Position numbers and translations under genes: made by a program. From positions 62,001-126,000 of the forward strand of contig CACMOZ010000001.1 in the NCBI GenBank assembly GCA_902615435.1: 64,000 nucleotides of DNA, in the 5' to 3' direction. The DNA comes from an uncultured Pelagibacteraceae bacterium. Lineage in GTDB: Bacteria; Pseudomonadota; Alphaproteobacteria; Pelagibacterales; Pelagibacteraceae. This document shows, in pieces, positions 509-36,161 of this stretch. The notes beneath the pieces were generated by a model. It worked only from the letters and a program-made list of their open reading frames with translations. It was not told where the DNA came from and made no database searches. Every line of letters starts with the position of its first letter. Within the stretch, counting starts at the first letter, position 1.

Positions 509-585
509 GGGCCTGTAGCTCAGTTGGTTAGAGCAGTACACTCATAATGTATTGGTCCCAGGTTCGAGTCCTGGCGGGCCCACCA
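509..585 (+). tRNA. tRNA with CAT anticodon (elongator Met or Ile2)
   Basis: GGGCCTGTAGCTCAGTTGGTTAGAGC...CTCATAA...GGTTCGAGTCC...CGGGCCCACCA; 77 nt, cloverleaf and encoded CCA. Confidence 0.95.
533..585 (+). repeat. Direct repeat copy 1 (3' part of tRNA-CAT; putative att core)
   Basis: 53 bp identical to 2020..2072. Confidence 0.95.
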
Positions 586-664
586 ATAAAATCAACACTT
601 TTAGAAGATTTAGAAATTTTTAAAAACGTCCAGGTACACAATTTGTACACAGTGAAATATGTTA

Positions 665-1108
665 TTAAAATTTTTGTTTAGCTTTTTCGCAATTATAAAA
701 ATATTGCATCAAATACTTTGAGTCATCATTTGTATTTCCCGCTGTATACGTCAGTCGACCATTATATCTATTTAAATTAATCGAAATATAGTTTGTATTT
801 TTTGATATAACAAACGTATAGTTATCATCATCGACTTTACTTACAAATTTTTCACTTTTTACTAAATCTAAATTAGCCATTGGCATATCTGTTTTAAATC
901 CATACTTATTATTTTTACCATTAGTAATGTTGAAATATATTATTTTAGGGTTGGTATCATCTTTTATAGTTTCCCCAAATTGCCCAGCGTCCCAATTTCT
1001 GTAATAGGTTTCAACATATTCACAAGTTAATTTTGTTTCTTTTGAGAAAGAAATTTCAAACCATAAAAAACTTAAAAGTGAGAAAGCTGCTATTTTTTTT
1101 AGAGTCAT
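665..1108 (-). CDS. Hypothetical secreted protein (island cargo)
   Basis: ORF track; N-terminal signal-peptide-like segment MTLKKIAAFSLLSFLWFEISFS. Confidence 0.6.
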   Translation of the reverse strand: MTLKKIAAFSLLSFLWFEISFSKETKLTCEYVETYYRNWDAGQFGETIKDDTNPKIIYFNITNGKNNKYGFKTDMPMANLDLVKSEKFVSKVDDDNYTFVISKNTNYISINLNRYNGRLTYTAGNTNDDSKYLMQYFYNCEKAKQKF

Positions 1109-1387
1109 TTATCTGTAATAAATATGAATTGTAGAAACAACGGAAAATATTAAAAATGCAATTGGCGTTAGTAGGAAAAATATTTTTTTCTCTTCTGGGT
1201 GTTCTTTTCTTGTTTTTAATTCAGCACCAATAGTCCATATCCAAATAAAAGTAGAAAGCGGGAGTAAAAAAATAAATAAAAAATCAGCTTTTGAAAATTC
1301 AAACCAAACAGATACCCAGTATAAAGCTGGAATAATTGTCGAGGCACCACCTATTTGCTCTGCGTATTTATCAATAAAGTTTTTCAT
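1109..1387 (-). CDS. Hypothetical small membrane protein (island cargo)
   Basis: ORF track 1109..1429; internal start MKNFIDKYAEQIGG... avoids overlap with the next ORF; several hydrophobic helices. Confidence 0.55.
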   Translation of the reverse strand: MKNFIDKYAEQIGGASTIIPALYWVSVWFEFSKADFLFIFLLPLSTFIWIWTIGAELKTRKEHPEEKKIFFLLTPIAFLIFSVVSTIHIYYR

Positions 1388-1391
1388 TTTT

Positions 1392-1667
1392 TTATTTATA
1401 AAATTCTTCTGGATTATTTTCAAATTCATTCAAAGCTAACTGAATTGACTCTTTTTCGGAATACCCTTTTTTTTGATATTTTTTGATTACAAATTTAAAT
1501 CTTGCTTTTGCTACAGCATTTTTTGTTATCGGATGATTTGAGTCTACATATTTTGAGGCTTCCCCCATATCTTTCAAACTATCTGATGTTATTTGAATTG
1601 ATGGAATTACAATTTTAAAAACAAACCAAATTGCAACTAATATTATTATGATTATTAAAATTTCCAT
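1392..1667 (-). CDS. Hypothetical protein with N-terminal TM anchor (island cargo)
   Basis: ORF track; MEILIIIIILVAIWFVFKIVIP TM segment. Confidence 0.55.
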   Translation of the reverse strand: MEILIIIIILVAIWFVFKIVIPSIQITSDSLKDMGEASKYVDSNHPITKNAVAKARFKFVIKKYQKKGYSEKESIQLALNEFENNPEEFYK

Positions 1668-1671
1668 AAAT

Positions 1672-1935
1672 CTAATTTTGTTTTTCTGTAGTTACAAAAC
1701 CGTTTTCTTTCATAAATTGTTCTGCGTCTTCTTTTGTCTCAAAATTCCAAGAATGCATTGGTTGAGGAGGGCTTATATTTCTATATTGTACAACACACCA
1801 ATGCTTTTCACCCTCTTTGGTTTTATCTGGATGAGTTAAAGTTTTTGAAACTGTTAATTGATATACAAATTTTCTATGATCTCGATATATTCGCGGTATC
1901 GGTGGAGGGTAAATAATGTCATCTTCATTATCCAT
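1672..1935 (-). CDS. Hypothetical protein, 87 aa (island cargo)
   Basis: ORF track; co-oriented and closely packed with neighbours. Confidence 0.5.
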   Translation of the reverse strand: MDNEDDIIYPPPIPRIYRDHRKFVYQLTVSKTLTHPDKTKEGEKHWCVVQYRNISPPQPMHSWNFETKEDAEQFMKENGFVTTEKQN

Positions 1936-2019
1936 ATGTCACAGTTGTGTCACAGCTATGTGTCAATTTAAAGGAGTTCTATGAAATTTTTTTCTTATTT
2001 TATTGATTATTTTGCTAAG

Positions 2020-2072
2020 GCAGTACACTCATAATGTATTGGTCCCAGGTTCGAGTCCTGGCGGGCCCACCA
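2020..2072 (+). repeat. Direct repeat copy 2: tRNA-CAT 3' fragment (attR-like)
   Basis: gcagtacactcataatgtattggtcccaggttcgagtcctggcgggcccacca, identical to 533..585; lacks the tRNA 5' half. Confidence 0.95.
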
Positions 2073-2679: not shown

Positions 2680-3423
2680 TTAATTGTCTAAATTTCCCCA
2701 GTCGTCTTCTTCTTTAGTGGAATTATTGATTTTATTTTCTCTATCTTGCAAGTAAATACTTTTCATAGAGGAATACAAGTCTATAGAATTTTTTTTGAGA
2801 CTTTCAAAATTCTGGTCATTATCTGCTCTAAAATCTACTGCATCGGTCGCTTTAAATGAATAATAATCTAATGAGTTTCCAGACAAGCCAAACATTTCAT
2901 GTTCACGAATAGTAACATGAGCGAATGGATCTACAAAAGTATCTGCAATTAGTCCAATCGAGTCCCTCGCGGTAGTTGGTCCTAAGATTGGAAGAACATA
3001 GTAACAGCCGGGGCCAAACCCATAAGAACCTAAAGTTTGTCCAACATCTTCTTTATGAGGTTTTAACCCAATTCTTTCTGCGGGATTTAAAAAACCTAAA
3101 ATACCTACAGTAGTATTTATAGCAAAACTTCCTATCGAGTGGCCTAATTGTTTTAAGTTACCTTGTAACAAATTATTCGGAATTGATAATAAAGTCCCTA
3201 AGTTAGAAGTGAAATTACTTGTTCCAGTTTTTATTGGGTTAGGTAACTTATTATATCCCTTAGCAACTGGTTCAAAAATATAATTATCTAACGTCAAATT
3301 AAATTTGAAAATTGCTCTACTAGTTTTTTCAAAACACTCCTCTGTAGCTTGCGCATTTTGGCCTAAAAAAAAGACAATACCTAAGACAGATATAAAAATT
3401 TTTATGTTTTTATCTAATTTCAT
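2680..3423 (-). CDS. mlaA: MlaA/VacJ family lipoprotein
   Basis: FKFNLTLDNYIFEPVAKGYNKLPNPIKTGTSNFTSNL..., GFGPGCYYVLPILGPTTARDSIG motifs. Confidence 0.88.
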   Translation of the reverse strand: MKLDKNIKIFISVLGIVFFLGQNAQATEECFEKTSRAIFKFNLTLDNYIFEPVAKGYNKLPNPIKTGTSNFTSNLGTLLSIPNNLLQGNLKQLGHSIGSFAINTTVGILGFLNPAERIGLKPHKEDVGQTLGSYGFGPGCYYVLPILGPTTARDSIGLIADTFVDPFAHVTIREHEMFGLSGNSLDYYSFKATDAVDFRADNDQNFESLKKNSIDLYSSMKSIYLQDRENKINNSTKEEDDWGNLDN

Positions 3424-23174: not shown

Positions 23175-27725
<4,551 letters not shown>

Positions 27726-35809: not shown

Positions 35810-35867
35810 CACTAGGTTGTATTTTTTAAATAACGTTGATACTGCAAACTAATTTAACAAATGAGTA

Positions 35868-35896
35868 GGGGCGTTCTGTTGCCAGGTGCCCCGAAC
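35868..35896. repeat. tmRNA coding-piece 3' end, native copy 3 of the repeat
   Basis: ggggcgttctgttgccaggtgccccgaac inside ssrA. Confidence 0.9.
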
Positions 35897-36130
35897 CCCG
35901 TTACTTAATTAACAAAGTTAATTAAGCTGCAAGTGCATAACTTTCGTTAGCATTTGTAAATTGGCCCGTTACGTCGGAACCATCTCGTACGAAAGAATAG
36001 CCTTTAGACATCCGTCGATCCTAATTCACCCCCTTTTGATTTAATTGGTGGAGGTGGTGGGTACTGCCCCCACGTCCGTAATGTTTATTACGAAATTCGT
36101 TTATCGTCATAGTTGGTAAAACCAACAATT
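35868..36130 (-). ncRNA. ssrA: tmRNA, circularly permuted two-piece alphaproteobacterial type; ends approximate
   Basis: Minus strand: acceptor piece ...GGACGTGGGGGCAGTACCCACCACCTCCACCA (3' end 36046), 12-nt spacer, coding piece from 36033 GGGGGTGAATTAGGATCGACGG...; tag GCTAACGAAAGTTATGCACTTGCAGCTTAA = ANESYALAA*. Confidence 0.95.
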
Positions 36131-36132
36131 CT

Positions 36133-36138
36133 ATTATA
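36133..36138 (-). promoter_or_regulatory. -10 box of tmRNA promoter
   Basis: TATAAT on minus strand just upstream of the acceptor piece. Confidence 0.6.
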
Positions 36139-36161
36139 AAGTAGATTTGGCATTTTACTAC

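Follow-up and report, generated by a model that had tools for sequence, protein, structure and literature searches.

A candidate trans-mobilised, integrase-less cassette at a SAR11 tRNA-Ile2(CAU) gene

Comparison with related genomes identifies a 1487-bp segment behind a tRNA(CAT) gene of a SAR11 bacterium as an insertion bounded by two identical copies of the tRNA 3' half. We put the chance at roughly three in four that this segment is a non-autonomous cassette, similar to a cis-mobilizable element (CIME), which is moved by a tyrosine integrase supplied in trans. The window, i.e. the whole 64,000-nucleotide stretch analysed here, belongs to genome G000 (1039 kb, 24 contigs, 87% complete), and its named public relatives are Pelagibacteraceae (SAR11) carrying single-cell isolate names. 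The comparisons use draft assemblies and represent each species by a single genome. The features of the locus are as follows.

509-585, + strand: tRNA(CAT) called by ARAGORN, by elimination tRNA-Ile2(CAU); predicted to join the attB 5' half to an element-delivered 3' half
533-585, + strand: left core copy (attL core), running from the anticodon arm to the CCA end; identical to 2020-2072
586-2072, no strand: inserted cassette, 1487 bp, the predicted excised circle; missing from 44 of 46 congeners
586-619, + strand: left end, ATAAAATCAACACTTTTAGAAGATTTAGAAATTT, by eye like the left ends of sister-genera cassettes, AAAATCAACGTTTAGAA and ATAAAATCAATACTTATTTAACGTTAGAG
634-640 and 645-651, + strand: putative left arm-type repeats, GTACACA twice, 11-bp step
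665-1108, - strand: cargo ORF of 147 aa, putatively secreted, with an N-terminal signal-like helix; no relatives found, AlphaFold model of low confidence
1109-1429, - strand: cargo ORF of 106 aa from the ORF list, putative membrane protein; no significant match in Pfam or PHROGs
1392-1667, - strand: cargo ORF of 91 aa from the ORF list, putative N-terminal membrane anchor; no significant match in Pfam or PHROGs
1672-1935, - strand: cargo ORF of 87 aa from the ORF list, first gene of an apparent operon; no significant match in Pfam or PHROGs
1937-1944 and 1948-1955, + strand: right arm-type repeats, TGTCACAG, with a partial TGTCA at 1961-1965
2020-2072, + strand: right core copy (attR core), the displaced tRNA 3' half; sub-threshold RF00005 match
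2075-2671, - strand: mlaC (Pfam MlaC, 2.4e-27), right-hand neighbour of the empty site, in synteny in 46 congeners
2680-3423, - strand: mlaA, a conserved neighbour (46 congeners)

The first-pass annotation had described an intact tRNA(CAT) ending at 585, a second, identical copy of its last 53 bp (2020-2072) lying 2 bp from the stop codon of mlaC, and four closely packed minus-strand ORFs without a recognisable integrase. All three descriptions agree with our analysis: ARAGORN places the tRNA at 509-585, the two 53-bp copies are 100% identical and the second lies 2 bp from the end of the Pfam-identified mlaC (2075), and the four ORFs were located and gave no integrase in Pfam, PHROG and PF00589 searches. 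An exact repeat of 53 bp is far beyond what chance could produce. ARAGORN labels the tRNA as Met; the gene contains the pairs C4-G69 and C5-G68. Genome G000 has two further CAT tRNAs, which read clearly as initiator and elongator tRNA-Met. Because these two read as Met tRNAs and the target has the two pairs just named, it is most likely tRNA-Ile2(CAU) and not Met; it is single-copy and presumably essential in G000.

The annotation had further read the arrangement as tyrosine-recombinase integration at a tRNA, and had proposed to compare the locus among relatives, where presence of the segment in all of them would count against this reading. In that comparison the site was empty in 44 of the 46 congeners, with a tRNA-to-mlaC distance of 1-39 bp (median 4) at the orthologous position. 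The empty sites and the duplicated core together support integration at the tRNA. One exception, L051, has a gap of 361 bp with a 58-bp tRNA copy (97% identity) and one small secreted ORF. In another, L034 (G032), a 2.2-kb insertion without a tRNA copy separates tRNA and mlaC and holds ORFs that by eye resemble an acyltransferase and an SGNH protein; attR may have been lost there, or another mechanism may have acted.

The protein searches that the annotation had suggested gave no significant match to Pfam or PHROGs for any of the four cargo ORFs of the window cassette, and AlphaFold models of two of the proteins had a mean pLDDT of 58 and 46. Nothing significant was found when relatives of the cargo were sought in the genome contigs, phages and fetched loci. 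The predicted attP junction of the excised form would consist of the end ...TTTTGCTAAG, the 53-bp core and the start ATAAAATCAACACTTTTAG....

Similar cassettes recur across SAR11. When the family genomes were scanned with 45 nt of the tRNA-Ile2 3' half, at least one copy turned up in 309 of 397, and two copies in 16 of these 309 Pelagibacteraceae genomes: 2/123 in the window's genus and the remainder across three other genera. In the ten loci retrieved from those other genera, the copies stand 1.06-2.3 kb apart and enclose 1-5 small ORFs; no integrase was seen in any of the ten. The sister family (f2) has arrays at this tRNA too, each made of one or two cassettes that measure 0.19-1.35 kb. There, L086 carries two cassettes: the first is the thioesterase cassette also present in L084, and the second is a relative of the L085 cassette; cassettes therefore combine. 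Reading the stretches around the other tRNAs of G000 revealed a second cassette at tRNA-Ser(GGA), with an exact 3' copy 1246 bp downstream. This cassette (L237; contig C2, approximately 24165-25500, outside the window) has three small ORFs (154, 104 and 78 aa), no integrase, and ends related to those of many congeners. Two or three 3' copies of tRNA-Ser(GGA) were detected in 17 of the 115 genus genomes having that tRNA. Overall, the cassettes measure 0.2-2.3 kb, and none has a tyrosine recombinase nearby. The earlier remark that the window segment is far smaller than typical islands is correct, but within SAR11 this size is the rule. Their cargo includes secreted or membrane proteins, a Trypsin_2 peptidase, a TylF methyltransferase, a 4HBT thioesterase, a GSDH protein, a MUG113 protein and many unknowns; a role at the surface or in phage evasion would be a guess. 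At two further loci, L092 and L100, a left end of cassette type with GTCGTC arms comes after tRNA-Ile2, and a second tRNA copy was not found within 13 kb; these may be larger or decayed elements.

The sister family also records the direction of exchange. Displaced copies in f2 begin at or near the anticodon loop, and the sequence 5' of the loop differs. In L079, the working tRNA carries T-stem allele C and the displaced copies carry T, while the 2-kb downstream flank is closest to genomes with the T allele (L096, 96.8%; L105, 96.3%). L086 is the mirror case: its tRNA has T, its distal copy has C, and its flank is closest to that of a C-allele genome (L077, 98.2%). At the level of sequence, these two genomes demonstrate replacement of the tRNA 3' half by an incoming element: the allele swaps imply that the element brings a new 3' half and displaces the old one, and therefore that the newest cassettes adjoin the tRNA.

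Direct evidence, from sequence comparison, for recent spread of related integrase-less cassettes between species came from tRNA-Ser. Cassettes of different species at this tRNA have conserved left and right ends, often with unrelated cargo. The 2010-bp cassette shared by G008 and G011 is 99.3% identical, compared with 79% and 81% in the flanks and 76.5% in the mlaC region. Likewise, the 1903-bp cassette of G018 and G595 is 98.9% identical versus 44-55% in the flanks, and the cassette shared by G018 and G036 is 96.3% identical versus 75-78%. No integrase ORF was seen in any of these three shared cassettes.

We then consider the sequences that an integrase might recognize. Many cassettes have, at each end, a pair of 8-9-bp direct repeats with a step of 10-12 bp and a single motif per cassette; the motifs include TGTGCGGGA, TGCAGTCATT, GCAGGCCA, GTCGTC and TTGTGTAC. 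In a four-site test against dinucleotide shuffles, 11 of 21 cassettes reached p<=0.035; among the 15 outside-flank controls, one did so. Distances between the right pair and the core are mostly 60-74 bp. In the window, the right arms (TGTCACAG-TTG-TGTCACAG) lie 70 bp from the right core, and the left arms lie 49 bp from CCA, inside the range of 45-74 bp for other cassettes; neither the left arms by themselves nor the joint test on the window alone (p=0.15) reached significance. The right pair has no second occurrence in G000 when up to 2 mismatches are allowed, and none in 398 genomes of the order when the match must be exact.

Three of the four arm-repeat families tested adjoin integrase genes in unrelated viruses. 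Pairs of TGTGCGGGA were detected in five viral contigs, with an integrase within about 150 bp in all five. For TGTCACAG, an integrase adjoins the pair in three of 11 viral contigs, approximately 30-50 bp upstream of the integrase ATG in L127 and L132, which carry the same integrase, and approximately 200 bp upstream in L126; the other matches among the 11 look like unrelated repeats with no adjoining integrase. In one viral contig (L220), a TTGTGTACC pair is located about 30 bp upstream of a 402-aa ORF recognized by eye as integrase-like. For the GGTCGTC/GTCGTC motif, an integrase neighbour was not found in viral contigs, and its three matches there, inside structural genes, were judged to be chance. 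A TGCGGGA arm module follows directly after tRNA-Lys(TTT) in two f2 genomes, L137 (G095) and L141 (G091). The cargo of L137 resembles, by eye, a protein of the tRNA-Ile2 cassettes L085 and L086; cargo and target can therefore be recombined.

A source of the enzyme was sought in hosts and viruses. Tyrosine recombinases were called with PF00589, and a home-made integrase HMM was dropped since it missed Xer-type controls. PF00589 gave no match in G000 (87% complete), none beside this tRNA in 100 relatives (101 genomes with G000), and no integrase was found within about 13 kb of the fetched sites. A match was present in 94 of 99 near-complete genomes of genus g6, usually as a single recombinase of approximately 310-325 aa, with few extras. 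Because PF00589 is absent at the sites and extra recombinases are few, we infer that the integrase must usually come from outside. Pelagibacteraceae (f1) mostly have one weakly scoring tyrosine recombinase of approximately 310-325 aa, possibly a single-recombinase Xer system, and f2 usually has two strong ones of approximately 305-325 aa. Exact core patterns searched in 2.9 million viral contigs, as a sign of a helper with this tRNA core, gave 0 matches; close core matches in named phages appear to be tRNA genes of the phages and not att sites.

In the mechanism that we propose, the attP core of a circular form would be the tRNA-Ile2(CAU) 3' half, and crossover with the tRNA gene in the chromosome would take place near the anticodon loop. 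The old half would thereby be moved 1.49 kb downstream, beside mlaC, and the essential tRNA would have stayed intact because a new 3' half came with the element. As recombinase we propose a lambda-type tyrosine integrase that recognizes the core and the arm-type direct repeats near both ends. Since the cassette encodes none, another element would provide it in trans, with a phage or a satellite as the likeliest candidate; recent jumps of enzyme-less cassettes between species make a passing virus or other mobile element its probable source. Serial events of this kind could generate the arrays of single-gene cassettes at tRNA genes across SAR11. A wider reading, which we offer tentatively and hold to be rather less probable than its negation, is that SAR11 runs an integron-like cassette economy on tRNA genes, in which elements of 0.2-2.3 kb, made up solely of a tRNA-half core, the arm sites for an integrase and one to a few genes for surface or defence functions, travel between species through integrases that infecting phages or satellites bring in and that differ in arm specificity.

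Several other explanations were weighed against mobilisation in trans. The segment might be a deletion remnant, a larger integrase-bearing island that lost its integrase and transfer genes and left a stranded, decayed CIME. An internal deletion would indeed retain both cores and both arm sets, as seen, the neighbourhood of about 13 kb at the fetched sites lacks an integrase, and the evidence for movement concerns related cassettes. Yet many species have elements of this same small size whose ends are conserved and whose cargo differs, the integrase-bearing parent was not seen at the site in 101 genomes, and integrase-less relatives have spread recently. Identical decay would have to have happened independently many times, and we regard a remnant as unlikely. 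The first-pass annotation had left the choice between a cargo-only satellite mobilised in trans and a deletion remnant. Conserved ends with unrelated cargo, together with the recent jumps, favour the former for the family; continuing mobility of the window islet itself would be an extrapolation from its relatives.

Homologous recombination after natural DNA uptake, following one ancient site-specific event and using the flanking genes or the tRNA repeat as homology, is less probable still. Recombination rates in SAR11 are high, and identical tRNA 3' halves could seed RecA events, but 99%-identical cassettes sit in flanks of 79-81% (G008/G011) and 44-55% (G018/G595), the boundaries are always the tRNA core, and the arms lie at similar distances from it. 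We give very little credence to integration by a host Xer-type recombinase, as in Xer-exploiting elements: most Pelagibacteraceae genomes have their sole tyrosine recombinase in the 310-325-aa class, but the core is a tRNA and not dif, arm-type repeats are to our knowledge not a feature of Xer sites, and the 87%-complete G000 yielded no such recombinase. Least credible of all is an ancestral tRNA duplication or an assembly chimera. Single-cell amplification, to which the isolate names of related genomes point, can produce chimeras; however, the same architecture is present in many independent assemblies (e.g. on a 660-kb contig of the 100%-complete genome G061), and ancestral duplication is defeated because mlaC directly follows the tRNA in the 44 congeners with an empty site.

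Trans-mobilised cassettes of the kind proposed here share features with several known systems. CIMEs are att-flanked, integrase-less derivatives of decayed ICEs or IMEs, mobilised in cis by a tandem partner (PMC5704250), and the ssrA islands of Dehalococcoides without an integration module use a serine recombinase (PMC3146451). As in CIMEs, the window cassette keeps attL and attR at a tRNA/tmRNA-type site and lacks integration and transfer genes, and tandem accretion occurs in SAR11. In contrast to CIMEs, neither a tandem partner nor an integrase was detected near the site in 101 genomes, no ICE or IME parent is apparent, the cassettes are only 0.2-2.3 kb and integrase-less copies have dispersed recently between species; in contrast to the Dehalococcoides islands, a tyrosine integrase is proposed. 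Small tRNA cassettes ended by a direct repeat of a tRNA fragment are described for fGI1 of 'Ca. Actinomarinales' (PMC7771536) and, from 330 bp upward, for fGI-2 of Methylophilaceae (PMC10872708). In the parts of these accounts considered here, the cassettes likewise form additive arrays, the phyla and tRNAs differ from ours, and arm-type sites and allele replacement are not analysed; the words 'integrase' and 'recombinase' do not appear in the Actinomarinales text. Tycheposons are likewise tRNA-bounded cargo elements of marine plankton, but as described in PMC10872708 they measure 4-200 kb and carry a tyrosine recombinase, unlike the smaller SAR11 cassettes and the 1.49-kb, recombinase-less window element. 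CALINs, which use attC and the integron integrase, and MITEs, which use a transposase (PMC11389934), also keep their recombination ends while the enzyme is made elsewhere; the SAR11 site differs in being a tRNA 3' half with phage-type arms. Phage satellites (PICI, PICMI, VEIME) travel in the virions of a helper phage; for the window cassette, the attP patterns gave 0 matches in viral contigs.

As in islands of the Islander anticodon-loop class, an intact tRNA and a displaced 3' fragment in the same orientation lie at the ends of the window cassette, and the crossover subsite is at the anticodon, the copies starting at or near the anticodon arm with the T-stem swap 3' of it. Islander demands an integrase gene within the island (PMC4383910), and the cassette, from a genome without a PF00589 match, has none; integrase-less tRNA cassettes are thus filtered out by design. 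Small tRNA-fragment cassettes (PMC7771536, PMC10872708) and CIMEs (PMC5704250, PMC3146451) were already known. Relative to the literature compared, the new points are the set found in SAR11 and how small its members are, the arm-type sites with several specificities, the record of allele swaps, and the jumps of integrase-less units from one species to another. If our reading is true, enzyme-free kilobase cassettes hopping between species at essential tRNAs would be a route of gene flow missed by integrase-based island finders, and the source of integrase and vehicle would become a testable question. Elsewhere in the window, at 35831-36141, lies a tmRNA gene with the tag ANESYALAA, marked by the ARAGORN asterisk as the permuted type.
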